DNA of 37,663 nucleotides from a virus, in the IMG/VR virus record IMGVR_UViG_3300043427_003988, positions 1-37,663 of that record; one strand, 5' to 3'. Positions within the stretch are counted from its first letter, which is position 1. Every line of letters begins with the position of its first letter. The position numbers were made by a program, and so were the translations under genes. Shown one piece after another: positions 1,576 to 17,199 of this stretch. The notes beneath the pieces are model-generated. The model saw only the letters and a list, made by a program, of their open reading frames with translations, was not told the DNA's origin and ran no database searches.

Positions 1576-2796
1576 TTAGGTAATAGATGCTGTGTGCTGT
1601 ATATTAACGGCAAGAGCAAAGTTGATATCTTTGAGTTGGCCGCGAGGATTGTTAGCACCATCAACAAAGCGCCAGTACCATCCAGCATAGTCTGTACCAG
1701 CTGCTTGCATGCCGCCCGAATCATCTATGGCAGTAAAGAATATGCCACCTATAAAAGCATTAGATATGTTTGGATTTGTTGCTGGGAAAAGCAATGTAGC
1801 CCCTCTCGTATAAGATAAATTGCTATTTGAATATCCAATATTTGTAATGCTGCTTCCAGCACTACTGGTACCAACACGAACACTTGAAGCCTGCGCCCCT
1901 ATGTTATGAAAGTCTACATTTACGGCTGGAAAAGCAACTTGGGTAGAGCCGCTAGAATCTCCACCTGGCATTAAATAGCCAGAAGTTCCTGCCTGACCAA
2001 CCATACACCATGGCGTTGGCTTCCCGGTGGAGCTACCGTAATATCTATAAGACGCATCTAGTGGGGTACCAGCACTATTCATTGAGCCAAAGATGTTGGT
2101 GTAACCGCCAACGCATTTTAAAAGACCAAGGCCACTAAAACTACCGCTGCTAACATCAATATTTATAGGAGTAACGATTGCTGGTATTGTAACCTGCAAA
2201 GAGTAGGTCAATCTTAAAAATTGATATTGTTGCAACGTTACCGGAGCCGGAAGAACGAATCTTGACAGTACAGTTGTTCCTATTCCGCTATTAGTCTGAT
2301 ATGCTCTACCAGCACCTCTATTTCCTGGATCATTATAATCAGTAATTAAAATCTCTCTTACCGTATGCTGGTATGTTGTTGCTAAAAAATCATAAACTTT
2401 AGTAAATACACGAGTACCATTTACAGTATCAGTACTGACAGTGTTTGAGGTTACAGAACTGTAGCCGCTCCAGTTAAAAATTCCCGTGTTCGCATCGCTA
2501 GTTGTTGTATTCCATCCGTTTATTACGCCGCTTTTATAATTTCTATCTGTAGATGCCGTTATATCATTACCATATTGTGCAACAACCATAAGTCGCGCAA
2601 TACTTCCCCATCCAACCTGTGTTCCGGCCAACGATAGTAATCCTCTGGTCATTAAAAGATTTGGGCGCATTTCATCACCAAATGGTTTTTCTATTTCGCC
2701 ATTTGGATGTACAATTTCAACTTTCCACATGCCCTTAATAAAAGTCTCTGTCCCCAAAGTAACTTCTCTTGTCCTATTAATTATTAAATTAGCCAT
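1576..2796 (-). CDS. Surface/fibre protein, scaffold family A (406 aa)
   Basis: One of four paralogous family A proteins in this block. Shared landmarks are an N-terminal strand with W-x-V-x-I and NG-x-x-E followed by PFG (PFG near residue 38), a central SRF strand followed by a 'LRLTY' strand (about residues 180-205), and a beta-rich C-terminal half. The sequence is Gly/Ser/Thr/Asn-rich, without a signal peptide or membrane segment, as expected for a trimeric fibre or tail-tip subunit. I cannot name a published family. It is the last gene of the minus-strand block, 54 bases after its upstream neighbour, with its own promoter-like box. A receptor-binding role is inferred from context only. 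Confidence 0.65.
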   Translation of the reverse strand: MANLIINRTREVTLGTETFIKGMWKVEIVHPNGEIEKPFGDEMRPNLLMTRGLLSLAGTQVGWGSIARLMVVAQYGNDITASTDRNYKSGVINGWNTTTSDANTGIFNWSGYSSVTSNTVSTDTVNGTRVFTKVYDFLATTYQHTVREILITDYNDPGNRGAGRAYQTNSGIGTTVLSRFVLPAPVTLQQYQFLRLTYSLQVTIPAIVTPINIDVSSGSFSGLGLLKCVGGYTNIFGSMNSAGTPLDASYRYYGSSTGKPTPWCMVGQAGTSGYLMPGGDSSGSTQVAFPAVNVDFHNIGAQASSVRVGTSSAGSSITNIGYSNSNLSYTRGATLLFPATNPNISNAFIGGIFFTAIDDSGGMQAAGTDYAGWYWRFVDGANNPRGQLKDINFALAVNIQHTASIT

Positions 2797-2850: not shown

Positions 2851-3942
2851 TTAAATTCTATTAAATCCCCACTGCAAATTTATTGTTACTGGTGTATTTG
2901 CTGGAATTGCTTGTGGCGTATTAAATTTGTAATAAATGGCCGAATATGATGATCCTGTATTGTGATGCCATAAGTATATACCGCCAACCTCTCTAACTTG
3001 CGAAAAACCAGAAAAATGATAATTAGCTTCAATAGTGCTTGATGAATTTGTTTGTATTAAAGCTCCGGTTGTTACAACTGCTCTGTCGCCTGTTGGCGTA
3101 TAGTCCAATCTTCCTATTGGATAATTTACCGGCTCATGACCCGAAGGATAAAAGCCCACATTATTTGCCCAAAGGGGTGTGCCAAAAATATTTTGATATC
3201 TTCCGTAATTGCTAAATTCTGTTGTTTGTGAAAATGTATTGCTGTTTTGAGTAAAATCCCTAAATAGCGTAATGTTGCTGTCGCCAAGTGGTATATATGT
3301 ATTATTACCGCTTAATTGAGATAATATTCCAGTGGTATTTGCGGACAGTCTTATTTTTCCAGTAAAATCTAGCCCACCGCCAGTAAGCACAATTGGCACA
3401 TCAGAGTTCAAATGGGCAAGAAATATTGTTAGTGTATATTGAACTTTTAACCTGTCTCCGGTTTGTAGAATTAATGTGCCAGGAAAAGTAAATCTACTGG
3501 TTGCAATATCTTGAATGTCGTTTATTGCAAAGCTGCCTATTAAAATTTCTGAATATGCTACTTCAGTAATGCCGCCGGGTATCGTGTTGAATATAAAATC
3601 CCTACTTAAAGAAATAGAATTATTTGCTGGATTTATAGACGCTGTAAAACTATCGCTCTTATATGTTTGAGCTATAAGAGTTCCAACAAGTCCAGTATCT
3701 CCTCTTGATGCGGCTTGTAAACTATTTCCAGCACGACATGTTTGAATGAAAGATTGTATTCCAAACTTGTAACCACGCAGTATTGATGCGAAAAACGAAT
3801 CAAGTATTAAATTTTTTCTTTTTTCTTTTCCAAATGGGTACTCTATTCGGCCATCAGCTTTTAAAACCTCAATTAAATACTCTCCTTTTACGCCAGCTAT
3901 ATTAGAACTATTTAGCTCTATATTTTCTATATTTTTTTCCAT
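2851..3942 (-). CDS. Surface/fibre protein, scaffold family A (363 aa)
   Basis: Second family A paralogue. The N-terminal signature reads EVLKADGRIEYPFG followed by a basic stretch and N-L-I-L-D, matching the same region of its 406- and 375-residue relatives. The central SRF strand (SRFTFPG) and the following 'LKVQYTL' strand are conserved. The C-terminal half is divergent, ending in VTINLQWGF, which resembles the terminal strands of the relatives. It is Gly/Ser/Thr-rich with no export signal or membrane span. Flanked by 50- and 54-base gaps, each with a promoter-like box, it may be transcribed separately from the six genes upstream of it. Family-level function unknown; probably a virion appendage subunit. 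Confidence 0.6.
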   Translation of the reverse strand: MEKNIENIELNSSNIAGVKGEYLIEVLKADGRIEYPFGKEKRKNLILDSFFASILRGYKFGIQSFIQTCRAGNSLQAASRGDTGLVGTLIAQTYKSDSFTASINPANNSISLSRDFIFNTIPGGITEVAYSEILIGSFAINDIQDIATSRFTFPGTLILQTGDRLKVQYTLTIFLAHLNSDVPIVLTGGGLDFTGKIRLSANTTGILSQLSGNNTYIPLGDSNITLFRDFTQNSNTFSQTTEFSNYGRYQNIFGTPLWANNVGFYPSGHEPVNYPIGRLDYTPTGDRAVVTTGALIQTNSSSTIEANYHFSGFSQVREVGGIYLWHHNTGSSYSAIYYKFNTPQAIPANTPVTINLQWGFNRI

Positions 3943-3992: not shown

Positions 3993-6900
3993 CTAAACTG
4001 TCATCGATATTCCAGATAGGCTATAATTTACACTCTCAAAATATAATGGTACCACCATAAACCTACCAGATATTGAATAAGAGGCAGATTCTCCAGTTAT
4101 TGGCTGGATTCCGGTGTTAATTCTGTATAGTCCAGTTACAGAGTAGCCGCCGCTTTCAATTCCAGTAAAGTCATTTCTAGAATATGTGTAGTGATAGAGT
4201 GATGTAATACTGCCAGATATGTTTTGGTATTCAGTGCTGAATCCAGTACTTCTTACAGCTTCTTCGTAATTAACAGAAGGAACGCTTGCTGTGAGTGATG
4301 ATTGTTCAATTGGGTCAGTAGCAAAAAGAACAGCTATTGCCTCAGTCAAAGTTACAGAAGATATTGTGGCTTGAATTGTTCCAGTTTCGGCAATAAACCC
4401 AGTCTGTAATCCTGTTCCAATTTCTAGGAATCCGCTTAAATAATTAACATTATTAATTGTGCCGCTTACATTGACTCCAGTTTCTTCAAACGTGCCGCCA
4501 GAAATAATAGCTAAAGTGTATGATACGCCACTAATGTTTCCAGATATGTTTGTAAGCGAGTAATCTAGTACACCCCCTGGAATACCAGTCAGCGTAATTC
4601 CAGTACCAATCCAGCCAGTAAAATAACGACCGCTGGTTATTTTAACATCTCCAAAATATGCAAATTCACCATCAATATTGCTTTTACTTATGATACCAGT
4701 AAGCAATCCATATCCAGAGGCTGAATTTCCTAAAAATCCGCTACCTCTTGTGAAGTTGAAATCTGCGTATACTACTCGCGGCAAGTATTGATTATAATTT
4801 TCTAATAACCCAGAAAATCCAGAATATACACCAGTATAATATACAAAATTTCTTGAACCAATAAAGCCAGTAATAACTCCGGAGCCTGTTGGTTGATTAT
4901 TTATGCCAGAAAATCCACTACCTTCTGGAAAACTAAATCCAGTGTATTTGTAACCATCTTCCTCGTTAAATCCAGATCTTCCAACAAACCCTTCATCTGA
5001 ATAATACTTTAATATGTTTTTAGAACCTATATATCCATATAATATTCCCGTGCCATAATTTTTAAATTGATTTGCAAGAAAATCAAATTCTATTCCTGAA
5101 AAGCCAGTTCCACCATCGAAAAATCCACTATACTCATATCCATAACCATCATCTATACCAGTTATAGACTCTTTTCCTAAAAATGTTCCAGAGAATGTTA
5201 ATATATTTTTATAGCCAATAAATCCGGTCATTTCACCAATCCCTAAAAACGGGTTATTGGGGTCTTCTCCTATAAATCCACTATTTCCAAAAAAGAATCC
5301 GCTGTATTCATAACCGTAAGTAATATCTAATCCATCTATATTTTCAAACCCAACAAAATCCCCACCGCTTGGATAAAAATATCTATCTATTGGATCATTA
5401 GACTCTACATTGTTAGTTAGGAGTACGCCACTCAGTCCATCTCCGCTGGTATAGCCAGAAAACTTACCAAAACCATCCATAAAGCCAACCCAAAAACCAG
5501 TAACTGGAGATTTTTTAATTACTTTTATTGGCGAGAATTCAATTTTATTATTACCAATATAATATCCGCTTTGTGAATTTAAATTATACAGATCAAAACC
5601 AGACCAGCCATTCTCAGGATCCAAATAGCCACTTAAAAATCCTGATATTGGTACTTGTACCGACCCTGTGTATGTAAAATCGATTTGCTGGCTATCTAGA
5701 AAATAACCACTGCCGTAATTTTGTTCAGAAGAATTGAATGGACGAAAATTATAAGCTGAATCCATTATTCCGCTTATGTATCCTGTTATCTTATCTATCT
5801 CAAATTTTCTATATGGCGGAAATACTATCGTATTGTTGTTATAATAAAAACCACTATAGCCAGAAATTGTATTTCTATTAAATCCGCTAAAATTTCCAGA
5901 AACATCACGATAACCGCTCCAAAAACCTAATATCCCATTATTTGACAGGCTTTCTCCCAGCCTTAAACTTCCATAAGTTCCCGTTGATTGGTATCCTGTA
6001 AGATAAAGTCCACTTGTTATATTAGAATTTATTTGTGTTTTTTCAACCGGAGATCTGCCAGGCCAGCCACCAAAGCAACCAAGCTGTCCGCAAAGCAATG
6101 GATCGTAAAACCATTCCCATTTGCCGAAATCTTCAACAAATATTGACGCTATAGTTGCTGTTATGTTTGAAAATTCTTTTGGGTAACCTTTGTATTCGAT
6201 TGGAAAAACTCTATAATAATCAAGTTCGGTAATATTGGCTGTGACGATTTTGCTGGCAGTATCGCTTATTCCAGAGAGCAATGCAGGAAATGATTCGTCT
6301 ATTGCGCCTACCGTTAAGCCCATATTAAATGCAATTTCTTCAGCAAAATTTGAATAATTACCTTTTATAATTAAAATTCCAGGAACTAAGTGATCAAGGC
6401 CCTCTAAATTGTAAACTTTTGACGCTAAATTTGTGCATCCGGCACCAATAACAATTCTTCTTGGAAGATCGTAATCATATACGCCAGGTCTAATTTCTCT
6501 TCTTACGTATGGTGAAACAAATTTTCCCGAATACAATCTTTCATCCCTTCCATAAAACGATTTCAATGTATAATTATCAAAATTAACTCCTACATTAAAA
6601 CAATAAAAGCGATTTGGCGTTGATCCTAGTTCTGGGTCATAAAAAGATATGGATTGTGGGCCATAATATTTTTGTGTCTCTTTTTCTGACCAATCCATTT
6701 GAAAGCCTTTTTTATCTTCTCCAAATATTTCATCATAAATATACGTTGTTCCTTGCGGTCTAAATCTACTATCTGAAAATTGTGGGGCAATAACCTGAAA
6801 CCAATCTGGAGAGTTATCGCAAACAAAATATGGGCATACTGCATTTCCCCTGTAAAGACTTCTTGCATATTCATTTGAGCGCAGATGTTTAAAAAAATAA

Positions 6901-7301
6901 AATATAGTTGACTCATCTTTTCTAAATTGAAAATCACCCTCAACATTTCCAGAAAAATTGATTATTGCCGATGTTTGGTATATTGGCCCAAACCTTCCAC
7001 CAACTTGCACATTCGAACCAACTTGTATACCACTTTCGTTCCACAGAGCCAGGCCCGGAAAAACAACGGGAGTGCCGGATGCAAGTTCGCCTATACCAAA
7101 AGCTCTGTTTCCAACGCCTATGTTTTGACTAATCCTAAAAGGATAAAAAGCAAACTTTCTATCAGGAACAATAGAGCATAAATATTCTACAAAATCATTT
7201 AGTCTTGTAATTTCTGCCCCATTGAAAAAATTTATACCCTGCCCAGTTACACGGGTAATAAAGTCATCAACAAGAGGATTGATAATATCATTATGTAGCA
7301 T
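3993..7301 (-). CDS. Giant fibre protein: family B head plus SGF repeat array (1102 aa)
   Basis: The N-terminus (residues ~1-110) resembles the family B proteins of 277 and 394 residues: a helical lead with EI-x-x-(L/I) motifs, then a YPF strand. The region up to ~420 is beta-rich and divergent, including a Cys pair in a Gly-rich loop. Residues ~424-873 are an SGF array: units such as GFLSGYLD, SGYYIGN, YTGFSFPEGSGFSG and GSGVITGFIGSRN in order. The last ~230 residues are a different Gly/Thr-rich beta region. The typical family B end (FIS-x-GY) is missing. Its ATG is 6 bases after the upstream stop. Probably an elongated virion fibre; binding target unknown. Confidence 0.7.
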   Translation of the reverse strand: MLHNDIINPLVDDFITRVTGQGINFFNGAEITRLNDFVEYLCSIVPDRKFAFYPFRISQNIGVGNRAFGIGELASGTPVVFPGLALWNESGIQVGSNVQVGGRFGPIYQTSAIINFSGNVEGDFQFRKDESTIFYFFKHLRSNEYARSLYRGNAVCPYFVCDNSPDWFQVIAPQFSDSRFRPQGTTYIYDEIFGEDKKGFQMDWSEKETQKYYGPQSISFYDPELGSTPNRFYCFNVGVNFDNYTLKSFYGRDERLYSGKFVSPYVRREIRPGVYDYDLPRRIVIGAGCTNLASKVYNLEGLDHLVPGILIIKGNYSNFAEEIAFNMGLTVGAIDESFPALLSGISDTASKIVTANITELDYYRVFPIEYKGYPKEFSNITATIASIFVEDFGKWEWFYDPLLCGQLGCFGGWPGRSPVEKTQINSNITSGLYLTGYQSTGTYGSLRLGESLSNNGILGFWSGYRDVSGNFSGFNRNTISGYSGFYYNNNTIVFPPYRKFEIDKITGYISGIMDSAYNFRPFNSSEQNYGSGYFLDSQQIDFTYTGSVQVPISGFLSGYLDPENGWSGFDLYNLNSQSGYYIGNNKIEFSPIKVIKKSPVTGFWVGFMDGFGKFSGYTSGDGLSGVLLTNNVESNDPIDRYFYPSGGDFVGFENIDGLDITYGYEYSGFFFGNSGFIGEDPNNPFLGIGEMTGFIGYKNILTFSGTFLGKESITGIDDGYGYEYSGFFDGGTGFSGIEFDFLANQFKNYGTGILYGYIGSKNILKYYSDEGFVGRSGFNEEDGYKYTGFSFPEGSGFSGINNQPTGSGVITGFIGSRNFVYYTGVYSGFSGLLENYNQYLPRVVYADFNFTRGSGFLGNSASGYGLLTGIISKSNIDGEFAYFGDVKITSGRYFTGWIGTGITLTGIPGGVLDYSLTNISGNISGVSYTLAIISGGTFEETGVNVSGTINNVNYLSGFLEIGTGLQTGFIAETGTIQATISSVTLTEAIAVLFATDPIEQSSLTASVPSVNYEEAVRSTGFSTEYQNISGSITSLYHYTYSRNDFTGIESGGYSVTGLYRINTGIQPITGESASYSISGRFMVVPLYFESVNYSLSGISMTV
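4680..6030 (-). repeat. SGF repeat array in the 1102-aa protein
   Basis: Degenerate in-frame repeats of three block types: alpha (GF-x-SGF-x-D-x-x-G-x-F), beta (SGY-x-I-x-N through FSGFSG and GY-x-YSGF) and gamma (GSGI-x-TGFIG-x-(R/K)N). I count about four to five alpha and four gamma blocks. Boundaries are approximate and from eye. Confidence 0.75.
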
Positions 7302-7307
7302 TTTTTG

Positions 7308-10300
7308 TTAATTGTAATAACCTTCCATAACAATATTGACATCTTCTAAACCAGATAGGGTATTATATATATCAAATCCAACTCTATTTTTTCCAGTAAT
7401 AAAAAATCCTATATTATATCCGAAATATTCGTTATACATTTCTCCAGAATTAATTGAAAAAGGAAAAAATGAATATTTATTACCGTATCTATCTTTGTAA
7501 TATAGCGATCCTGACAATGGAATCATTTTAGGAACATTTCTATAACCAATAATACCAGTAAAAATTCCTGTTCCGTAAGTTCTATCATATCTTAAAACAT
7601 TTCTCCAACCTATGTTTCCAGTAATAATTCCAGGCCCATCCGTACCATTATCTGATATAAAGTTTTCGTTATTATAGTTAAATGTATCTTGATTAACTAT
7701 ATATTGAAAACCAGTTATAGCACTAAAACCGCTAAGACCATTAAATCCATTAAAATTTCCAGAGCTTTGTGAAATATTTCTACTACCTATAATTCCAGTA
7801 ATTGCACCGCTTCCAGATGGTAGCATTCTGTATCCTATAAATCCTGTCATAATGCCGCGAGTATACGTCTGCGCTGTTGTTCCAGAAAAGCCGCTGCCTT
7901 CTGGAAATGAAAATCCTGTATAAGCAAATCCTAGCTGTTCATAAAAGAAATTGCTAAGCCCAGAAAAACCACTCATATTGTTTGTTGGAAATACATATCT
8001 TCTACCATTAATAAAATATCCGCTAGATCCAGAAACTGTATTAAGAAGTTGAAAGCCGGTAAATCTATTAAACGTATCTTGTAATCCACTTATATATCCA
8101 ATAACTTTTTGTAATCTTGGCGTCTGATTATAGTTGTTGATAGAATTAAATATACCAAATCCAGTATACGAATAACCAATTGAAGCATCAAATCCAGATA
8201 GGCCGTCAAATCCTCGAAAACTATCGTTAATTCCTGTACCAGTAGCAAAAAAGTATCTTGTATTATTTATAAAATATCCACTAGATGAATTTGGGTATGT
8301 GTATGGAACAAATTGCTCTGTTGATATATCTACAAATCCGCTTTGAAAGCCAGATATATTTTGGCCACTTTTTAATTTTAATGGTAAGAAATGATATTTA
8401 TTATTATCTAATATGTAACCGCTTGATCCTGAAAATCCAGTATACAAAATGAATGTATTGTTTGTTCCACTTAAAAATCCGCTAACAAAGCCAGTAACAA
8501 TTTCCTGATATAAATATGGCTGACCAATGCCACTGAATCCGCTTGCTTTTTTAAAAAACCCATCATACATATAACCAAAATTGTCAAATCCGCTTTGATT
8601 ATTGAAATTATCAAACCCTTTAGTTCCCAAATCTGTATCGTTTATTCCAGTTAAGAATCTGATTTGTAAATTATCTATAAAATAACCACTTACTCCGGAT
8701 ATATTTTGACCAGTATAATTATAACCGCTTGTACTAAAAGAAAAATCATATATTGTATTTGCTTTTATAAATCCAGAAACTTCTTGCCTTGTTGGCACAT
8801 TTCTGTATCCAATTTTTCCTATTAAAATACCAGTATTTCCACCGCTACTATCTGGATATTGACCAGAAAAGAAATTATTTTGCACATCAGAAAATATTCC
8901 AGAATATTGATAGCCCATGTATTCTTCAAATCCATACATTCCGCTAAATGCTGTAAATCTTGTATCAGGAATAACAACGCCTGTTCCAATAAATCCTGTC
9001 ATTATACCAGAGCCAGATGTTGGAAATTGCGTTCCAGAAAATCCACTACCTTCTGGGAATGAAAATCCAGAATAAACAAATCCATAACCAGTAACGTTAT
9101 TTAAAAAACCAGGCATCCCAGAAAACCCAGAGAAGAATCTTCCAGTCGGGAAAAAATACTGTCTGCTTATAAAATAACCGCTACTACCGCTTGTAAATGG
9201 ATTTGTTACATGGTATGGGGTAAATATACCTTCACTACTTACAAATCCGCTTAAAAATCCAATCACCTTTTGCTTTCTTGGCATCATGTCTCGGAAAAAA
9301 TATGCTTGGCCACTTATAAAATATCCACTAGAACCAATTATATAACCAGTTGGATCCAGCGGAAAATCGCTAACGCCTGACCCGCTAATATTATTTAAAG
9401 ATATAAAGCTTCCGCCAGAAGTTCTATATCCGCTTAGAAAACCAGAAATCACTTCTGGATATGGGGCAACTCTCCATCCAATTGTTTCTAAAAGTTCTCC
9501 AGCTGTATATTTGTCTGGTTTATAACCGCTAAAAATTATATTTTCATTTTGACTTAACTTAAAGCCAGAATAATCAAACCCAGAAGATTGAGAAAAATTA
9601 TTACCTAAACCGCTAAATCCAGAAAAATTTAATCCAGTTGGAAAATTATATTTTTTACCATTAATAAAATAGCCGCTCCAGTCTGACATGTTTGGTTGTT
9701 GATAGCAGGGATCACAGGTTTGAAGTATAACTCCTTGATTTTGTGGTATATATATTGGTAATTCATTTAAATACCCACTTATATATCCCGTTATTTCCTG
9801 TTTGTATGTTGTTGGCCCAGCACCAGAATTTCCGCATTGTATTATTAATCCAGTAAATGTTGCATCGTGCTGGCAATATTCTTCATAAATATTGTTGCCA
9901 GTATTAAGCTGTCCTTTGTTATAAAAATTAAATGTTCTTGGCATCCTGTCAAAATGAGATGCTGCCGGAAAGTAACCAAGCAAGTGGTATGAAATGGATT
10001 TCATTTCATTTGGTGCGGTCACGATATCTAAGCCTAATATATGATTAGGGTATATTTTTTTAGAAATTGGTTTTTGTATATAAACTTCTCTTGATGGTAA
10101 TTCAAAATTTGCTATAGTTTCTGAATCGATAACAGAGTTTAAATTTCTTGAATAAAATCTTCCCTGCAAAGATTGAGAGCCAGTTGCTGGATATGCACAG
10201 CTAATCGCATATCCTGTTGCCATAAAAAAATCATTTAATAAAGTTTCATTTAGATATGGGCCTCTTGCTGGCCATCTGCTATAAAAAGATACGGGGGCAT

Positions 10301-10442
10301 ACCCTTTAATAAAAAAGTTTTCGCTAACTTGAACCCCAGAAACATTCTTGACTTGTTGGCCGTCAATGTACAAAGAGTTATTTTGAGCCGTTAATATAGA
10401 TCCGTTTAAATTGATCTTTTCTATGGATAATACGCTTGGCAT
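7308..10442 (-). CDS. Giant fibre protein: family C ends plus SGF repeat array (1044 aa)
   Basis: Residues ~1-190 and ~973-1044 match modules of the plus-strand 776-residue fibre protein. Shared features are an N-terminal short helix/strand lead, the ATGY...LQGRFYSR strand pair, and the C-terminal pattern G-x-L-YY-x-D...VG-x-DIYN-x-L...NIV. Between them, residues ~214-970 form the SGF array. It contains about six or seven alpha blocks (GF-x-SGF), several SSGYFI(N/S)G blocks, two exact FSFPEGSGFSG motifs and six gamma blocks. No membrane or signal segment. The upstream gene ends 9 bases before its start. Probably a long trimeric fibre whose conserved ends assemble with, or replace, the plus-strand relative; this is inference. 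Confidence 0.7.
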   Translation of the reverse strand: MPSVLSIEKINLNGSILTAQNNSLYIDGQQVKNVSGVQVSENFFIKGYAPVSFYSRWPARGPYLNETLLNDFFMATGYAISCAYPATGSQSLQGRFYSRNLNSVIDSETIANFELPSREVYIQKPISKKIYPNHILGLDIVTAPNEMKSISYHLLGYFPAASHFDRMPRTFNFYNKGQLNTGNNIYEEYCQHDATFTGLIIQCGNSGAGPTTYKQEITGYISGYLNELPIYIPQNQGVILQTCDPCYQQPNMSDWSGYFINGKKYNFPTGLNFSGFSGLGNNFSQSSGFDYSGFKLSQNENIIFSGYKPDKYTAGELLETIGWRVAPYPEVISGFLSGYRTSGGSFISLNNISGSGVSDFPLDPTGYIIGSSGYFISGQAYFFRDMMPRKQKVIGFLSGFVSSEGIFTPYHVTNPFTSGSSGYFISRQYFFPTGRFFSGFSGMPGFLNNVTGYGFVYSGFSFPEGSGFSGTQFPTSGSGIMTGFIGTGVVIPDTRFTAFSGMYGFEEYMGYQYSGIFSDVQNNFFSGQYPDSSGGNTGILIGKIGYRNVPTRQEVSGFIKANTIYDFSFSTSGYNYTGQNISGVSGYFIDNLQIRFLTGINDTDLGTKGFDNFNNQSGFDNFGYMYDGFFKKASGFSGIGQPYLYQEIVTGFVSGFLSGTNNTFILYTGFSGSSGYILDNNKYHFLPLKLKSGQNISGFQSGFVDISTEQFVPYTYPNSSSGYFINNTRYFFATGTGINDSFRGFDGLSGFDASIGYSYTGFGIFNSINNYNQTPRLQKVIGYISGLQDTFNRFTGFQLLNTVSGSSGYFINGRRYVFPTNNMSGFSGLSNFFYEQLGFAYTGFSFPEGSGFSGTTAQTYTRGIMTGFIGYRMLPSGSGAITGIIGSRNISQSSGNFNGFNGLSGFSAITGFQYIVNQDTFNYNNENFISDNGTDGPGIITGNIGWRNVLRYDRTYGTGIFTGIIGYRNVPKMIPLSGSLYYKDRYGNKYSFFPFSINSGEMYNEYFGYNIGFFITGKNRVGFDIYNTLSGLEDVNIVMEGYYN
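7530..9800 (-). repeat. SGF repeat array in the 1044-aa protein
   Basis: The longest array of the three, with the cleanest units. SSGYFI followed by a three- or four-residue turn and a Y-x-F strand recurs many times, alternating with GF-x-SGF and GSGI-x-TGFIG-x-RN. Spacing between blocks varies, so units appear to have been gained and lost singly rather than as one fixed cassette. Confidence 0.75.
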
Positions 10443-10451
10443 ATATTTTTA

Positions 10452-11285
10452 TTACAGTGCCGATCTTGACATTGCTTTTTGAAAATTTTCTACAATATTT
10501 GTATAATTCATAATATCTAACTCATTAAAGCCATATCCTAGGCTAATAAACGACAAATTTATTTTTGCCGCAGAGGTGATTTGTGGACTAAATCTGTTTC
10601 CAAAAACAGCTATAGTTTTATCATTTTTAGGATGAATTTCTGTTGGTAAAAGCGGGAACCATTCGCCAAAAATTTGGCCATTCAAATAGCATTTTGAAGT
10701 ATTATTGCCTATAAAAAAACCTTTACCGGTAATATTTTTGTTAATCATTTCTTGTCGCAACATTCCAAATCCGCCCATATTATTAATTTTATTATAAACA
10801 TAACCAATAATTCCGTTGTTATTTCCAAAATTTAATTCAAAAGCTCCCATCTCTTCTATATTTTTTTCTATTTCTAAAGTATTAACACCCACCATTCTAC
10901 CATCATCACTTACAGAAGCTATATTTGTTCTGTTATATGCAGCTATATGAACATTTTGATATTGGGAAAACAACGTCAATGGAATTCCAGTTAATCCATA
11001 TCCGCCATTGCTAGTTACACCAAAGCTATTGTAAGTTATATCACCACCCCAAGATATTCTGTACTTACCAGGTAAAATCAAATTCGTACCCGTAGATATG
11101 CTACTCCTACCAACAAGCGGGTATACGGCTATAAATTTATTCCACAGATTGAATTGAATTAATCCATCAATTAATTGAGAAACGGCTCTTATTTCTTGCC
11201 TTAAAAAGTTTTTTTCGCCACCACCAGTGATAATAAATGGATAAACTAAAGGATTTAAAAAGTCTTTACTTTTTCTATTAAACAT
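10452..11285 (-). CDS. Surface protein, scaffold family B, short form (277 aa)
   Basis: Array-free family B protein. It shares with the 394-residue relative a helical lead ending IQFNLWNKF and then (A/I)-V-Y-P-x-VGRS, a Gly-rich central part, and the C-terminal FISLGYGFN followed by a short helix ending in SR. This resembles a beta-sandwich virion protein family found in phages and bacteria whose members end with FISIGDGL-like motifs; I name this only by resemblance. Three bases separate it from the upstream 1197-residue gene, so translation is probably coupled. Function inferred as an adaptor or tip subunit. Confidence 0.65.
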   Translation of the reverse strand: MFNRKSKDFLNPLVYPFIITGGGEKNFLRQEIRAVSQLIDGLIQFNLWNKFIAVYPLVGRSSISTGTNLILPGKYRISWGGDITYNSFGVTSNGGYGLTGIPLTLFSQYQNVHIAAYNRTNIASVSDDGRMVGVNTLEIEKNIEEMGAFELNFGNNNGIIGYVYNKINNMGGFGMLRQEMINKNITGKGFFIGNNTSKCYLNGQIFGEWFPLLPTEIHPKNDKTIAVFGNRFSPQITSAAKINLSFISLGYGFNELDIMNYTNIVENFQKAMSRSAL

Positions 11286-11288
11286 TTT

Positions 11289-14200
11289 TTAATAAACCTC
11301 TCTGGTCATAGAAAATCTAAAATCTAACTCTATTTTTTGATCTTCGTATTTTAATTGTGGAGTATCAAATATATATACCCAACCAACGCCTTTTGTGCCA
11401 GTAATTCCATTTTGAACTCCAGATGCAGGAGTCCAGTTTGGGGTACATGGATATGCCCACCATTCTGGGTCACCAGGATATGGCTTATATTTTTGGTTTG
11501 AGCATCTAGAGGTACCACATGATGGGCAGCCATCATATGAATATGAAATCATAAACCCATTAAATCCTGTTACGGTTACATTTGGATATTCTGCTGGAAA
11601 TATCAATTTGAAGTCATTATACATTGGATATGGGCCATTTCTGCCACCATTGTAATACTCTATGGCTAATCCATTGCTTGCTAATGGATACGCAGGCCTA
11701 TCATAATCCTCTGCCCAAACTACTGGCCTATAAACGCGAAAAGTGGTACTGCAATCTACACCTACGCTTTCTTCAAGGCACGATTCTTCATCTCCTGGAA
11801 AAGGAACCGCAGTCATTTTTCTAATTTGATTTGGTGGGGGAAATTGATTTACTCCCGAAGCCAGCATATTTGCTGATAAATGATATAAATCATATGGGCT
11901 ATCATATCGGGCATGATGATATATAAGCATTGGCCACCAAAAGCCTTCATTTGCCAAAACAGATTCGCCGTCTACGGCAGAACTTCCAAAAATTTTACTA
12001 TACAAACCAACTAATTTTAATCTTCCGCTTGCGTTAAAGTCTCCGTAAACAAGATTATTTCCTGTTACTGGAACCTCTTCTACAAGGGCTGGTATTCGCA
12101 TTGCTGTTTCGTAAGTTAATCTAACAAAATCTCCAACTTCAAGCTCGATTCCTGAAATATAATTTTTGATTGCAGCCAAGCCAGTTAAAACGCCAGTTTT
12201 AGAAAATTGTAAAACATTTCTATCTCCAATAAATCCAGTCAAAATACCACTGCCACTTATTGGGTACTGAAAAATATTTTTGTATCCAATAAGTCCTGTA
12301 ACTATACCACTTCCAGAATTAGTAAAGCTTATACCACTAAAACCGCTTGGCCCACCAATAAAAAATCCAGAAAATTCATAATTTTGACTGTCTGGTATGT
12401 TCTCACCATCAAATCCAGAAAATAAACTTCCTGTTTTAAAAAATAGCCTATTTGTATTTACAAAATAGCCGCTTGATGATAGTTCCGGATATATATTTTG
12501 ATATGGAAAAAATTCTTGGTATTCATTCATGAAGCCACTTAAAAAACCAAATACCATTTCTTTTTGCACAACTGGCCAACTGTATCCCGAAAAGCCAGTT
12601 CCTTCAGGAAATGAAAATCCAGTATATCTAAATCCAAGACTAGAGTCGAATCCATTCTCCCCACTAAATCCGGAAAAATTTATTCCTGTACGAAAAAATA
12701 CTTGTTTGTTATTTAAATAGTAACCGCTGTATCCTGTAAAATTTTCTATGTTTGTATTGGTAAATGCTACAAATGACCCAATTTCATTTATAAAACCACT
12801 TCTGAAGCCAATTATTTTTTGTCCAGATTTGAATGGGTCACCGCTAAATCCAGTTAATCTAATATCAAAACTTCCACCAGTAAATACTCCAGTAAAGTTT
12901 GGCAATCCTGATCTAAAAAATCCGCTATTTATATAATACCAGCCATATTCATGTGTAGGTATTCCACTTAATCCACTATATGATCCAACAAAATTTACAG
13001 TGTTTCTATCACCAATTGCGCCAATAATTTGGCCATATCCAGAATTAGAATATTCTGCTCCTGAAAATTGCGAGCCCTCTGGTAAAGCAAATCCTGTAAA
13101 TTTATAACCTAAATATTTTTCAAAAAGTGGATATTTATTTTCAAAAGCATCGAAAGAGCCACTTTTATAAAATGTTCTTTTGTGACCAATTAATCCTGTT
13201 AATATGCCATATCCAGAAGTTGTACCGTCTATTCCACTAAATCCACTAGTTCCGCTTAAAAAAAACTGAACATTAGAATATGTTTGTGTTGAAATATCAA
13301 ATGTGAATGGTTCACCATTAAATTGATTAAATGTACCGCTATATTTTAATAATACTCTATTTCCAATATCACTTGTATAATCCCCACTGCCAGTATAGTA
13401 ATTTCTATCGCCAATAAATCCGGTGACCATACATAGGCCAGAATCTCCGAATTCCATACCAGAAAAACCACTTCCTTCTACAAAACTAAAACCTGTATAT
13501 TTATATCCAAAACTTTTATTAAATAAGTATTGATTTTCAAAACCATTAAATCCAACAGATGGGAATTGAAATCTTCTATCATCTATAAAATAGCCGCTCG
13601 AACCAGATGATGGATTTAAACGATGCAAGCCAGAAAAAACGCCTGATGTATTTAAATATCCACTTATATATCCAATTATTTTTTCATTAAACTTGTTATC
13701 TCCAGAAAATCCACTATTGATATTGTTAAATCCACTATAATTATAACCCCAATCATCATAGAAATATTCTTGACCAGAAAAGCCAGAAAACATATCTCCT
13801 GTTGGAAAAACATATTTTTGACCGCTGATATTATATCCGCTAACTGGATTATCTGTATGTCCAGAAAAATTATTAAATTTATCAATTGAACCACTTATAA
13901 AGCCTGTAATTTTTTCAGAATCGAAATATCTTGTTGGTTTAAAATTGTATGATTGGCTAAAAGTAAAATAGCCGCTTGTTCCAGAAATAGACCTATCATT
14001 AAATCCAGAAAAATTACCAAATTCGTCAGAAAATCCAGAAATGAAGCCTGTAATTGGGTCTGTTCTTACCTCTGTTATTGGATTAAAATTATACTTAACA
14101 CCGCTTACAAAGTACCCGCTAAGGTTATATCTTACATCTTCATTGGTTGGAGTAAAAATTCCAAACTGATCCATATATCCGCTTCTGAAACCAAGTATTT

Positions 14201-14882
14201 TTTCATTTTTTCTGCTTTTGTATGGACCTATGATATGTTTAGCGCCATTAACGAAGACGCCACTAACCTGATCTATTTCATGCGGAAACATTCTAAATAT
14301 ACCACTATCATCCATATAACCGCTAAGAAAGCATGGGGATCCAGTTTCGGCAGTAAATAAAAATCTAGACCAGATAGCATTATTTTGTGGCCCATATCCC
14401 CAGACAGAAGATGCATATGATCTAAATCCAGCTTCAGTATATTTAATAGGTTCTATTTCCGATGTAAAGTCATAGCTTCTTCTAAATTTTGCCATTCCAG
14501 ATTCAACAATATAAAAACCTGTTCTTCTGGCATAAAATGGCCGAATATAATCTGTTTCTTTTTTAAATCTTGAAAGGCTTAAATCAGAATATTCAATAGG
14601 TTTGATTCCGGTGCCAAGTTGCATATATCCCTCGGTAAGAGTAGCAAAGCTGGCAACACCACCTAAAAATCTGAGAGCTGATGCTTGTTGTGAGCACATG
14701 AAGATTACAGAAGATAGCCAAGAATCTAAAATTGCGTTCTTTTTCATCCCAGTTCCAAATGGGTATTTTGTATAAATACCATCCGTATCTCCAGATTTGC
14801 AAATTTGAATATTCCATTCCGCAGATAAGTATGCATCTGCAGATATATTAATATTATTTACATATTCAGATTGATTTATCAT
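11289..14882 (-). CDS. Giant fibre protein: family A split by an SGF repeat array (1197 aa)
   Basis: Residues ~1-175 are a family A N-terminal half: EWNIQI, PFG near residue 45, then MKKN, up to the SRF strand near 172. Residues ~916-1197 are the matching second half, resuming with LEVGDFVRLTY. In the 406-, 363- and 375-residue relatives these two strands lie about 10 residues apart, so the ~730-residue array sits in a single loop. The C-terminal half has a Cys cluster, CPSCGTSRC plus one more Cys, that could hold a metal or disulfides, and ends IELDFRFSMTREVY as in relatives. The downstream gene follows after 3 bases. Probably a long receptor-binding fibre. Confidence 0.75.
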   Translation of the reverse strand: MINQSEYVNNINISADAYLSAEWNIQICKSGDTDGIYTKYPFGTGMKKNAILDSWLSSVIFMCSQQASALRFLGGVASFATLTEGYMQLGTGIKPIEYSDLSLSRFKKETDYIRPFYARRTGFYIVESGMAKFRRSYDFTSEIEPIKYTEAGFRSYASSVWGYGPQNNAIWSRFLFTAETGSPCFLSGYMDDSGIFRMFPHEIDQVSGVFVNGAKHIIGPYKSRKNEKILGFRSGYMDQFGIFTPTNEDVRYNLSGYFVSGVKYNFNPITEVRTDPITGFISGFSDEFGNFSGFNDRSISGTSGYFTFSQSYNFKPTRYFDSEKITGFISGSIDKFNNFSGHTDNPVSGYNISGQKYVFPTGDMFSGFSGQEYFYDDWGYNYSGFNNINSGFSGDNKFNEKIIGYISGYLNTSGVFSGLHRLNPSSGSSGYFIDDRRFQFPSVGFNGFENQYLFNKSFGYKYTGFSFVEGSGFSGMEFGDSGLCMVTGFIGDRNYYTGSGDYTSDIGNRVLLKYSGTFNQFNGEPFTFDISTQTYSNVQFFLSGTSGFSGIDGTTSGYGILTGLIGHKRTFYKSGSFDAFENKYPLFEKYLGYKFTGFALPEGSQFSGAEYSNSGYGQIIGAIGDRNTVNFVGSYSGLSGIPTHEYGWYYINSGFFRSGLPNFTGVFTGGSFDIRLTGFSGDPFKSGQKIIGFRSGFINEIGSFVAFTNTNIENFTGYSGYYLNNKQVFFRTGINFSGFSGENGFDSSLGFRYTGFSFPEGTGFSGYSWPVVQKEMVFGFLSGFMNEYQEFFPYQNIYPELSSSGYFVNTNRLFFKTGSLFSGFDGENIPDSQNYEFSGFFIGGPSGFSGISFTNSGSGIVTGLIGYKNIFQYPISGSGILTGFIGDRNVLQFSKTGVLTGLAAIKNYISGIELEVGDFVRLTYETAMRIPALVEEVPVTGNNLVYGDFNASGRLKLVGLYSKIFGSSAVDGESVLANEGFWWPMLIYHHARYDSPYDLYHLSANMLASGVNQFPPPNQIRKMTAVPFPGDEESCLEESVGVDCSTTFRVYRPVVWAEDYDRPAYPLASNGLAIEYYNGGRNGPYPMYNDFKLIFPAEYPNVTVTGFNGFMISYSYDGCPSCGTSRCSNQKYKPYPGDPEWWAYPCTPNWTPASGVQNGITGTKGVGWVYIFDTPQLKYEDQKIELDFRFSMTREVY
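12170..14340 (-). repeat. SGF repeat array in the 1197-aa protein
   Basis: About seven alpha blocks (e.g. KITGFISG, KIIGFRSGF), five or six gamma blocks (GSGI-x-TG-x-IG-x-(R/K)N) and three FSFPEGSGFSG-like motifs. The first four alpha blocks lie almost head to tail with a ~47-residue period. Later ones are separated by longer beta and gamma segments. Confidence 0.75.
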
Positions 14883-14883
14883 A

Positions 14884-16011
14884 TCATACGACTTCTATTA
14901 TATCTGTACCTGATCTTGACATAGATTGCCTTATCTGTATTACAATTTCTTTTTCTATTAATTTCGTTTGTTTATTATTTAATCTCCAAAGCCATCCACT
15001 AATTGTATTTTCTCTATCGAATTTGGTAGTTGTAAATAAAAACCCTTCGATTTGTTTTGTTTGTGTTGGGTTCCCAGATCCAAACTTATACGTAATATCT
15101 CTATAAAAATTACCATTTATATATTGTGGGGTGACTATATTTCCACTATTTTTGGTAGCTCTAAAGCCTATCCATTCTGAAACAATTGGTGCGTTGATGG
15201 TTGGATTAACAAATATATTTGCTATTAAATATCCAGTACCAAAACACTCATTTTCGCAGCCATTCAATTCTACACAAAAATTTTCACAAAATGGCATAAA
15301 GGTTGATTGTGGAGAATCTCCATATAAAATAAAAGGATTTCCATTAGAATCAAATGTTCCGAAAATATCATCGTATCTTCCGCAAAGTTTTAAACTGCCA
15401 TTCGCATTTACGGTTCCAGATGATAATGAAATTGGTATTGAATTGATCAAAGCTGGGCAACTTATTTTAAAATTATAAAATAATTTAATATATTGCCCAG
15501 GCATAAGGTTAATATTGTATGGTAAAACAAATCTTGAAAACATTCTGTTTTCATCATTTAGCTGGTTAAATCTTGTTCTAATTCCAATTTCTCTAACCTG
15601 TATTGGAGTAATTGGCTCATTAAATAAATATATTTTTTTGAACATCCTTGAACCATTTATATAATCGTCATCAATAGTGCAAGAGAAGTCATCTATGGTT
15701 GATGTGGCCTGTAACTGATTAAACAATTGTGTATCGGTTGCGCTAACTGGTATACTTGAACTACCATTAACAGCATCCCCTAACAAGAATGCAGGAACAG
15801 TATTCCAATTTAATCCATTATAGCTTGTATGATACATGTTTGAAGCTAAAATATCAAGCCCCTGATTGACAATCATATTTTTTTTCATATGTTCGCCAAA
15901 TGGAAATTCCTCCATGCCGTTTTTATGAACAATTGATATGTTCCATTCTCCGCCAATATAAATATTAGGCTCAACGGTAAATTCTTGAAATTTTTTTAAA
16001 ATTAAATTCAT
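14884..16011 (-). CDS. Surface/fibre protein, scaffold family A (375 aa)
   Basis: Array-free family A member. The signature regions are GEWNISIVHKNGMEEFPFG (residues ~20-38), MKKN, SRFVLPYNINLMPGQYIKLFY in the centre (two strands with a ~10-residue link), and a C-terminal strand ending IVIQIRQSMSRS. It contains two closely spaced Cys-containing segments around FCENFCVELNGCENECFG, a local Cys-rich loop. The gene lies 1 base before the 1197-residue relative and 3 bases after the family B gene upstream, so the three form one translation-coupled set. Likely a virion appendage subunit; not identified by name. Confidence 0.65.
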   Translation of the reverse strand: MNLILKKFQEFTVEPNIYIGGEWNISIVHKNGMEEFPFGEHMKKNMIVNQGLDILASNMYHTSYNGLNWNTVPAFLLGDAVNGSSSIPVSATDTQLFNQLQATSTIDDFSCTIDDDYINGSRMFKKIYLFNEPITPIQVREIGIRTRFNQLNDENRMFSRFVLPYNINLMPGQYIKLFYNFKISCPALINSIPISLSSGTVNANGSLKLCGRYDDIFGTFDSNGNPFILYGDSPQSTFMPFCENFCVELNGCENECFGTGYLIANIFVNPTINAPIVSEWIGFRATKNSGNIVTPQYINGNFYRDITYKFGSGNPTQTKQIEGFLFTTTKFDRENTISGWLWRLNNKQTKLIEKEIVIQIRQSMSRSGTDIIEVV

Positions 16012-16014
16012 TAA

Positions 16015-17199
16015 TTAATTCTCTACAAAGCTTAAAACAGACACAGCGGCTTCGGCCGCATCAGTTAAATAAACCCTTCTGGCCCCAAACACTGCACATG
16101 ATTTAATTTGTATTGATGCGGATAATGCATCTACATTATATCTTTTTGACTCTTCTGGATCTAATTTTCTTATATCATTAATTGGTCTAATATATCTTCC
16201 AATACTTTTTCTTGAACGATTTATTTTCATTAATGCTACAGAAGCATCATTATCTGCCACTTTTACATCTATAGGTCCAAGAACAATTTTTCCAACATTT
16301 CTAGATAAAATTTCTTGAAATTTTTCAATAATTTCATAAAAAATTTTATTCTCTTGCTGATTTAAGGCATAGCCAAAGCTTATAAAGCGCAAATTTGCTC
16401 TGGCCTGGCCAACTGTGGATGGGCCAAATATCTGATTTGAAAATAGTAAAAATGGGTGTTGGGTATAGAGTGTTCTAATGCCTTCTATTGGATCGTTATT
16501 GGTGGTTGGATTGATTCGCATTGGAAAAGGCGGATTCCCAATAACTTCTCTGCCATATTTTTCCCCATACACATAGCAAGTTTTTCCATTTACACCAACG
16601 ATTAAGCCTCTAACCTCAGAATGAAATCTATCTGAAGCATCTGTTCCTGTAAATACTGATGTCCCGTATTTAGCGGTTGCGCAAGAATAAGTAAAAATTG
16701 GAGCTTGATCAGCTGGTGCATAGGCGTCTAAGCGCCCCTCTCGTGCCCTTAAATATATTGCATGTATCCATGAAGAGCTTCCACCAGAAGTTGCACATAT
16801 TAACGGACATGTAGTGCTTGCTAAACCCCAGTCAGTGCCTGTATAAGCCGATACGTGTATATCGTTATCACTTAACCATCCTGGTGCAAAATAAGTATTT
16901 CCAAAACCATTTCCGGTATTGGTTACCCCCAACTTATCATGTATTAAAGATCCATTAAACCATCTAATCGTATGCCTAAAAGGATTTCTTAAATTTATAG
17001 AATGAGATCTTTCACTTCTTCCAACGAACGGATATATAACTCTAAATTTGTTCCACAAATTAGTTTGTATAAGCATCGTAGTTAAATAATTAATCCCCTC
17101 TATTTCGCTTGGCGTTAATTGAATGCCTATATCAAAACATTTTTGGATAAATAATGTAGCTGATGGATGTAAAATATCTCTTAATGGATATACTTGCAT
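16015..17199 (-). CDS. Surface protein, scaffold family B (394 aa)
   Basis: First gene of the minus-strand block. It has the family B lead (LTPSEIEGINYL...NLWNKF), YPFVGRS, a Gly-rich beta core, and the end motif FISFGYALN followed by a helix ending in LSRN. Compared with the 277-residue relative it has an extra ~95-residue C-terminal tail rich in charged residues (GPIDVKVADND ... SVLSFVEN) that resembles nothing else in the window. No other Met occurs near the N-terminus, so the ATG at 17199 is the only plausible start, although a promoter-like box ends one base before it. Function is inferred as tail-fibre or adaptor. Confidence 0.65.
   Translation of the reverse strand: MQVYPLRDILHPSATLFIQKCFDIGIQLTPSEIEGINYLTTMLIQTNLWNKFRVIYPFVGRSERSHSINLRNPFRHTIRWFNGSLIHDKLGVTNTGNGFGNTYFAPGWLSDNDIHVSAYTGTDWGLASTTCPLICATSGGSSSWIHAIYLRAREGRLDAYAPADQAPIFTYSCATAKYGTSVFTGTDASDRFHSEVRGLIVGVNGKTCYVYGEKYGREVIGNPPFPMRINPTTNNDPIEGIRTLYTQHPFLLFSNQIFGPSTVGQARANLRFISFGYALNQQENKIFYEIIEKFQEILSRNVGKIVLGPIDVKVADNDASVALMKINRSRKSIGRYIRPINDIRKLDPEESKRYNVDALSASIQIKSCAVFGARRVYLTDAAEAAVSVLSFVEN

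Follow-up and report, generated by a model that had tools for sequence, protein, structure and literature searches.

The closest described parallel to the proteins reported here belongs to a cellular enzyme. Si3, the insertion in the beta' subunit of cyanobacterial RNA polymerase, is described as a recursive insertion of HABAS domains which reaches six levels and contains branch nodes (PMC13114784, PMC11515920), the HABAS fold itself being a four-stranded open sheet with a GD-box-like motif (PMC11515920). The present work concerns the array-bearing fibre genes of a DNA stretch of 37,663 nucleotides (the window), which comes from a tailed phage known only without culture and covers part of its genome (IMGVR_UViG_3300043427_003988). 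Three of its minus-strand proteins, P0001, P0002 and P0003, contain arrays whose part order suggests, with a probability of roughly three in four, that a beta-rich domain of about 97 residues entered unrelated scaffolds and, recursively, copies of itself. Si3 and the phage array, on this nested reading, are alike in having a small beta domain within its own copies, branch nodes and multiple levels. They differ in that Si3 is part of a cellular enzyme, whereas the phage domain appears to enter unrelated scaffolds and varies in number between phages with near-identical terminases. No sequence relation to Si3/HABAS was found among the PDB chain sequences, where the array profile had no match, and neither was a significant fold match to the array model.

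Binding modules inserted into phage tail proteins have been described for phages of lactic acid bacteria, in evolved Dit and other adhesion-device proteins (PMC10688798, PMC9692632). The likeness lies in a binding domain within a phage tail protein; the array described here differs by its proposed self-nesting. The inserts of evolved Dit are single domains of known carbohydrate-binding folds and are not known to be nested in themselves. Among the listed titles and opening lines of abstracts in the open-access literature, no case of nested self-insertion in phage fibres was found.

Bracket-like order of the array units

The three carrier proteins have the coordinates and lengths (in amino acids, aa) given in the initial annotation:

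3993..7301, minus strand: P0001, 1102 aa; weakly B-like scaffold with 4 domains read as nested
7308..10442, minus strand: P0002, 1044 aa; scaffold C interrupted by 7 domains
11289..14882, minus strand: P0003, 1197 aa; scaffold A interrupted by 7 domains read as nested

The same repeat array is indeed shared by all three, its homology being evident from the best BLASTP E-values (1e-35 for P0001/P0003, 5e-38 for P0002/P0003 and 1.5e-20 for P0001/P0002). Each array is built from three recurring parts: alpha, the opening unit of 44 aa; beta, the middle body; and C, a closing strand that in places stands alone. Iterated profiles comprised 44 positions for alpha (84 sequences) and 53 positions for beta (82 sequences), whereby a full beta consists of the body plus a closing strand of the type G.G..TG.IG.RN. 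Some beta bodies lack a closing strand, the next part being a new alpha, and some closing strands occur alone further downstream. The part order is nested, as in brackets, rather than linear. With the parts written as tokens a, b and C, the rule reads: a domain opens with a, continues with b and ends with C, and any number of domains may stand between a and b and between b and C. A complete domain has about 97 aa and two insertion sites, s1 in the gap between alpha and beta and s2 in the gap between beta and the closing strand.

The rule was applied to 20 arrays from eight related phages, the window included (the others carry L numbers; A, B and C slots denote the positions of P0003, P0001, P0002 and their orthologues). 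The automatic calls needed 18 edits in total to fit it. Token shuffles within the arrays required 112 edits on average and 91 at minimum (n = 200), and shuffles keeping both ends 80.5 on average and 63 at minimum (n = 300). Hand completion comprised 20 changes, namely the removal of 2 split alpha calls and the addition of 18 tokens (13 C, 4 b and 1 a), after which all 20 arrays parse into 88 domains at levels 1 to 5. In these completed arrays, 35 domains sit directly on the scaffold, 33 at site 1 and 20 at site 2, which places 53 of the 88 within other copies; 48 are interrupted (12 of the 18 in the window) and 40 are leaves. The numbers of alpha, beta and C are equal in 20 of 20 arrays, with the betas short of a closing strand matched by the lone closing strands, in the right order. 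Among 5000 random orders drawn per array from the completed strings, with adjacent beta body and C kept joined, none parsed for P0003 or P0002 and 2 parsed for the A-slot array of L060, which had needed no hand change. Judged from part order only, the family copies are nested over several levels, as expected of recursive domain insertion, and P0003 and P0002 do not have the unnested order of a linear tandem-repeat shaft. The halves assigned to one discontinuous domain are separated by as many as about 670 residues of sequence.

The hand-added closing strands were scored on a 14-column core, and 10 of the 13 outscore each of 4,403 other array windows. This control treated 2,275 windows that lie on opening strands separately; the best of them scored 3.1, above the L060 B candidate only. 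Compared with non-array proteins, 10 of 11 candidates outscore each of 8,481 windows. With a profile made from the outer beta bodies in the A slots of L060, L064 and L065, the hand-added betas of the window, L059 and L061 outscore each of 416 array segments and 547 other segments. In total, 13 of the 18 hand-added tokens are clear of the controls; the parse is insecure for the L068 A array and for the outer level in L060 B.

Domains of the window are named by the first residue of their alpha unit. Their proposed trees are D180[s1:D228[s1:D276[s1:D324[s2:D401]]]; s2:D689[s2:D776]] for P0003, D216 + D331[s1:D392] + D548[s2:D648[s1:D695[s2:D779]]] for P0002 and D456[s1:D504[s1:D551[s1:D599]]] for P0001, with the following positions:

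12153..14345, minus strand: D180, discontinuous; alpha 14214-14345, beta 12906-12980 (hand-added), C 12153-12200 (hand-added)
12993..14201, minus strand: D228; alpha 14070-14201, beta 13059-13154, C 12993-13058
13167..14057, minus strand: D276; alpha 13926-14057, beta 13233-13331, C 13167-13232
13344..13913, minus strand: D324; alpha 13791-13913, beta 13701-13790, C 13344-13391 (hand-added)
13392..13682, minus strand: D401, continuous leaf within D324 at site 2
12207..12818, minus strand: D689; alpha 12678-12818, beta 12585-12677, lone C 12207-12272
12267..12557, minus strand: D776, leaf within D689 at site 2
9459..9797, minus strand: D216, leaf; C 9459-9503 (hand-added)
8790..9452, minus strand: D331; alpha 9285-9452, beta 8862-8957, C 8790-8855
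8970..9269, minus strand: D392, leaf within D331 at site 1
7527..8801, minus strand: D548; alpha 8640-8801, beta 8529-8615, lone C 7527-7589
7590..8501, minus strand: D648; alpha 8373-8501, beta 7653-7754, C 7590-7655
7767..8360, minus strand: D695; alpha 8232-8360, beta 8136-8219, lone C 7767-7823
7815..8108, minus strand: D779, leaf within D695 at site 2
4689..5936, minus strand: D456; alpha 5805-5936, beta 4728-4826, C 4689-4733
4839..5792, minus strand: D504; alpha 5661-5792, beta 4905-4994, C 4839-4904
5007..5651, minus strand: D551; alpha 5520-5651, beta 5094-5183, C 5007-5072
5196..5507, minus strand: D599, leaf

In the mechanism that we propose, a domain of about 97 residues (opening strand with alpha body, beta body and closing strand) would enter unrelated scaffolds of fibres or baseplate arms, and its copies would then enter copies of their own kind at s1 and s2, giving as many as five levels. 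The strand that opens a domain and the one that closes it would lie side by side, so that a complete domain could enter a hairpin turn, including its own. The chain might thereby become a branched, tree-like arm, growing and shrinking by recombination of whole sub-trees. We lean, by a narrow balance, toward a family which grows mainly through complete copies entering its own two hairpins, following a context-free rule and producing branched, dendrimer-like adhesion arms whose tree shape may be tuned by evolution.

The same bracket order is predicted by one long hairpin fibre, with an alpha limb running out and a beta limb running back, perhaps as a strand-swapped trimer and without separate domains. 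The B slot of the window, L059, L063 and L065 has four units out and four back, as such a fibre would, and some of the recursively inserted HABAS domains of RNA polymerase are domain-swapped (PMC11515920). A single hairpin is nevertheless unlikely, since free-standing alpha-beta-C copies are common (the 40 leaves) and a branching domain, with children at both of its sites, is required in P0003 and L060 B.

Scaffolds and inheritance among related phages

The ends of the three proteins had been assigned to three unrelated families, B, C and A, each also occurring without an array. Their mutual unrelatedness is borne out, as six cross-comparisons of the A, B and C scaffold profiles (hhalign) gave E-values of 0.13 or worse. 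By profile comparison, the scaffold link is confirmed for A and C on both sides of the array, with clear array-free relatives, and is weak for B. The scaffold parts and the domain-free family members are:

14346..14882, minus strand: N-terminal scaffold A of P0003 (residues 1-179); hhalign to array-free family A, E 1e-19, A columns 13-167
11292..12152, minus strand: C-terminal scaffold A of P0003 (residues 911-1197); hhalign to family A, E 5e-24, A columns 167-377
9798..10442, minus strand: N-terminal scaffold C of P0002 (residues 1-215); hhalign to P0009 15-233, E 5.5e-12
7311..7526, minus strand: C-terminal scaffold C of P0002 (residues 973-1044); hhalign to P0009 241-308, E 2.5e-10
5937..7301, minus strand: N-terminal scaffold of P0001 (residues 1-455); hhalign to family B, E 1e-4, probability 57%
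3996..4688, minus strand: SG-rich C-terminal part of P0001 (residues 872-1102); the relatives L063 and L065 have a different type here
14884..16011, minus strand: P0006, family A without domains (BLASTP); PHROG 4176, E 2.3e-7
1576..2796, minus strand: P0007, family A without domains (BLASTP); no PHROG 4176 match
2851..3942, minus strand: P0008, family A without domains (BLASTP); PHROG 4176, E 5.7e-6
10452..11285, minus strand: P0004, family B without domains; P0004/P0005 BLASTP E 1e-21
16015..17199, minus strand: P0005, family B without domains (BLASTP)
26699..29029, plus strand: P0009, whose first ~310 residues are an array-free relative of scaffold C (BLASTP, hhalign)

The array-flanking ends of P0003 meet at column 167 of family A in the hhalign comparison, pointing to one insertion site. 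In the alignment, this column falls within a short stretch between 'SRFVLP' and 'L..GQ..RL.Y', which might be a hairpin turn. The array of P0002 is placed between the two scaffold C modules (P0009 15-233 and 241-308). The family B profile match of P0001 is most confident across about the first 60 residues, and BLAST gave no match between P0001 and the B proteins. Family A matches the PHROG 4176 'tail fiber protein' profile weakly, through P0006 and P0008, with P0003 reaching just 0.015. P0009 is also SG-rich at about residues 345-460 and has, at residues 547-660, a Phage_cement_2 domain (Pfam, 25.5 bits against a cut-off of 24).

Searching with the terminase yielded 23 loci of 93-100% identity. 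A P0003-type sequence was present in 13 of the 23 records, and 12 stretches were taken for comparison. Near-duplicates were dropped before counting, namely L062 (close to L063), L066 and L067 (close to L065) and L069 (close to L060); of the eight array-protein pairs checked, six were identical and two differed at 2 and 7 positions. The close pairs window/L059 and L063/L064 were both counted, except in the association tests where named as left out. The fibre gene order is common to the eight phages as far as the contigs reach, those of L061 and L064 ending before some slots. Orthologues share 32-72% identity with the window in the array slots (best BLASTP stretch, slots beyond the L061 and L064 contig ends left out) versus 85-92% in PhoH.

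Array proteins measure 633-1236 aa in the A slot, 576-1044 aa in the C slot and 1102-1281 aa in the B slot, or 546 aa there without an array. Read by the rule, the A slot of L060 is D171 with three chained domains at s1 and two at s2, that of L061 is D167 with two chained domains at s1 and a single one at s2, and that of L063-L065 is D[s2: D]; L068 has a canonical domain and a second one at another place. Domain numbers in the C slot are three in L060 and L068, all of them plain, five in L063-L065 and seven in the window and L059. A four-domain chain occupies the B slot of the window, L059, L063 and L065; L060 adds one domain at s2 to this chain, and L068 has none. Three arrays of the relatives are free of nesting (L060 C, L068 C and L068 A). 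Sites occupied in one phage and empty in another include one extra domain at s2 of the second level in L060 B, one extra at s2 of D324 in P0003 compared with L060 A, and one extra each at s1 and s2 in the C slot of L063-L065 compared with L060 and L068. In the A slot of L068 (L068:4406-6307, corresponding to L020:1678-3576, record G015), a complete extra domain at residues about 404-503 lies within the C-terminal part of scaffold A, which is unique among the family A proteins examined. The P0001 orthologue of L068 (L068:8915-10555, 546 aa) is domain-free and ends in a different short repeat of the GIYGASGIRQINDNLIYGIKET type. In seven records of the group (fragments of 51,766 to 170,518 bases), profile matches (E 0.01) fall in open frames with the lengths of the three slot proteins. 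Presence, absence and array size vary among phages whose terminases are 93-100% identical. The slot differences could be written as whole sub-trees gained or lost, which a blind alignment test of the indels did not show (see below).

Two other features of these relatives were seen. The B-slot proteins L063:1752-5597 (minus strand) and L065:8591-12376 have a C-terminal end of the GLKTD..WD.I..C.MAGPRT type in place of the SG-rich end of the window, weakly B-like by hhalign (E 0.018, probability 2.6%). L062, L063 and L065 lack P0008, the third gene of family A, at its place between the B-slot gene and the final gene of that family.

A maximum-likelihood tree of domains rebuilt from their distant pieces clusters the outermost domains by scaffold and position. 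The A root forms a clade with support 99/97 (7 phages, L068 excepted) and the B root one with 96/97 (5 phages); the C-slot clades have 100/98 for the first domain (6 phages, L060 excepted), 97/74 for the second (6, L068 excepted) and 96/80 for the third (7). D401, present in the window and L059 only, groups with D228 of the same protein (96/88), like a copy made within one array. Same-slot matches in other phages were found for 51 of 81 alpha and 51 of 82 beta units, with 29.6 and 30.0 after shuffling. No concerted evolution or homogenisation within a phage was seen in the unit identities, which between two slots of one phage and of different phages were 0.375 and 0.372 for alpha and 0.388 and 0.396 for beta. 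The scaffold-level domains are old, inherited per scaffold, and predate the split of these phages.

The initial annotation regarded the array as a portable module. A homologous family in unrelated scaffolds is what was found; the single linear array is not, the unit being the domain of about 97 aa, mostly nested. A further form of this model, in which arrays are cassettes now being shuffled between scaffolds as a host-range reservoir, finds some footing in the array-free B slot and the new A-slot position of L068, and in one mixed-scaffold clade (99/96) joining the B leaf of L063/L065 with the A s2 domains of L063-L065. Slot changes on the tree number 17. A recent jump as the origin of the mixed clade was not accepted, as pairwise raw identity fails to single that clade out. 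Present-day movement between scaffolds was not borne out by the comparison of related contigs and is improbable, given the inheritance of units per slot, the lack of homogenisation and the age of the scaffold-level domains.

Weighing the nested reading

Several results weigh against recursive nesting. The automatic calls alone parse in just 6 of the 20 arrays, and the hand completion exceeds the cheapest repair by two, P0003 and L060 B having cheaper repairs. P0001 is not informative alone because about one random order in five parses (1039 of 5000), as its aaaa-BBBB order fits the rule that often. Of the 4,403 windows, 2, 2 and 6 score above the three remaining closing strands, all from the B slot, and an earlier 22-column closing-strand score failed to separate three P0003-type candidates. 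The hand-added beta of L068 A is unsupported, 344 of the 416 array segments scoring as high; with a general beta profile, the four hand-added bodies are equalled by 14, 102, 191 and 283 of those segments; and the outer alpha of L060 B, the single one added by hand, is weak (2.9 bits). A complete sub-tree accounts for 1 of 55 large indels (chance 5.5%) in plain pairwise alignments, in which repeats align ambiguously. The structure models are mediocre (predicted local distance difference test, pLDDT, 76 and 57), with no significant Foldseek match. Finally, the association between alpha and C fails the stricter of two controls.

This control, phage-consistent mis-pairing over 63 domains (L059 and all of L063 except its B slot left out), is beaten by the alpha-beta association (z 4.3, 0 of 500) and more weakly by the beta-C association (z 2.5, 4 of 500). 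The alpha-C value (z 0.25, 187 of 500) leaves the side-by-side pairing of opening and closing strands without covariation support. By simple permutation within proteins (59 domains, L059 and L063 left out), all three pairs pass (z 4.8, 5.2 and 3.2) under a null that ignores kinship. The nested pairing reaches an association score of 215.5, compared with 207.6 when the k-th alpha is paired with the k-th beta. These tests are supportive and not conclusive, because alpha and beta or beta and C are already neighbours in part of the domains.

A linear shaft of ordinary tandem repeats stacked in order, the bracket-like order being accidental, would suit the plain alpha-beta-C triplets of L060 C and L068 C, could explain the aaaa-BBBB order as two shaft zones, and is compatible with the single sub-tree indel. 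It is quite unlikely in view of the 18 edits needed by the automatic calls against at least 91 in shuffles, the equal unit numbers with short betas and lone closing strands matched in order, the failure of every random order for P0003 and P0002, and the weaker k-th with k-th pairing. An assembly or binning artefact fusing repeats of different genes deserves practically no weight: although repeats can mislead assemblers and the contigs are metagenomic, it is already contradicted by a second IMG/VR record (IMGVR_UViG_3300044701_004558, 51,766 bases) matching the window with one mismatch across 24,684 bases, by the common gene order in eight phages from IMG/VR records of different metagenome numbers, and by open frames throughout.

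Structure models, database searches and gene neighbourhood

The AlphaFold2 model of P0003 689-872 (26 rows) is mostly beta, with pLDDT 76 and a predicted template modeling score of 0.53. It had no Foldseek match at E 0.001 in PDB or BFVD, the best VIA Z being 3.5. It contains half of D689, whose closing strand lies beyond the model's cut; the higher pLDDT of the leaf D776 than of this cut parent was dropped as evidence, the alignment being deeper there (25.4 vs 7.5 rows). In the model of the L068 A-slot protein (633 aa, 19 rows, pLDDT 57), the A scaffold matched the tail chain 9h4p_BD of Haloferax virus HFTV1 at VIA Z 10.8 (247 residues, 4.1 Å; best Foldseek E 0.013). Residues 2-294 of the model gave Z 6.7 with the arm segment 9fko of phage phi812, 6.5 and 6.0 with the baseplate chains 9euj_H and 9euf_b and 6.7 with Listeria phage A511 gp105 (6hhk_C), values under 8 possibly reflecting just a common arrangement. 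Scaffold A may tentatively be likened to the phi812 arm, A511 gp105 and the HFTV1 chain. To our knowledge, none of the matched proteins of phi812, A511 and HFTV1 carries such an array. In HFTV1, gp42 is described as forming trimeric tail fibres, and the hub is trimeric as well (PMC12494034). Most of the 50 structural matches listed for the L068 A model fall on residues 181-273, which correspond to one domain of the bracket rule; they have Z 3.4-5, many are PAS-like, and residues 203-248 are under pLDDT 50. A PAS fold is not named for the array domain, the PAS-like matches reaching Z about 4-5 only.

Scanning the three proteins against Pfam, NCBIfam and PHROG yielded no family that helps to place the array, and no CBM family in these collections matched it at E 0.1. 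A choline-binding repeat (PF21540) was rejected at 15.2 bits, the curated cut-off being 27. P0003 had no match outside this phage group among 50,697 phage records (E 0.01), and P0006 (family A), P0005 (family B) and P0023, the last and cut protein of the window, had none in the phage records at E 0.1. In IMG/VR, an FPEGSGFSG-type DNA pattern found 11 stretches, 3 of this group and 8 without an alpha or beta match by hidden Markov model (E 0.01), and profile A6 found 5 loci, all in this group; among 312 pattern matches in genome_contigs there was no relative. These outside-group searches target short conserved stretches and may miss distant relatives. A further scan with family A gave no new phage and hence no fresh arrays for the bracket rule.

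The minus strand of the window carries eight fibre-type genes between 1.6 and 17.2 kb, in and around which Tandem Repeats Finder reports only short arrays of 24-45 bases. From 17.3 kb on, the plus strand has PHROG matches to PhoH, a sigma factor, an ERCC4-type nuclease, terminase and portal. The sign of the GC skew switches near 17-18 kb, the point where the gene direction switches, and a tRNA search of the window found none. An open frame at 388-1311 has a HELGH motif, which we take to be zinc-protease-like, and no PHROG match at E 0.01. On the plus strand at 29031-34424, a 1797-aa protein consists of several similar segments, presumably lectin-like (LamG/ConA-type); the NCBIfam TafC fimbrial profile matches four stretches of it (E 1.9e-23, 83 bits, under its cut-off of 410).

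The fibre genes probably encode host-adhesion arms, whose number of domains may set reach or valency. This fits their clustering, the match of family A to a PHROG tail-fibre profile, the tentatively arm-like scaffold A and the divergence of the slots beside near-constant neighbours. Repeat proteins are usually read linearly; the motif order here suggests that many of the 'repeats' are halves of discontinuous domains. If this is true, recursive domain insertion would occur naturally in a fast-evolving viral surface protein, and relatives with two, three, four, five, six and seven domains per protein would make the steps of nested growth traceable. It would also provide a simple annotation rule for similar phage proteins, which tandem-repeat tools miss.

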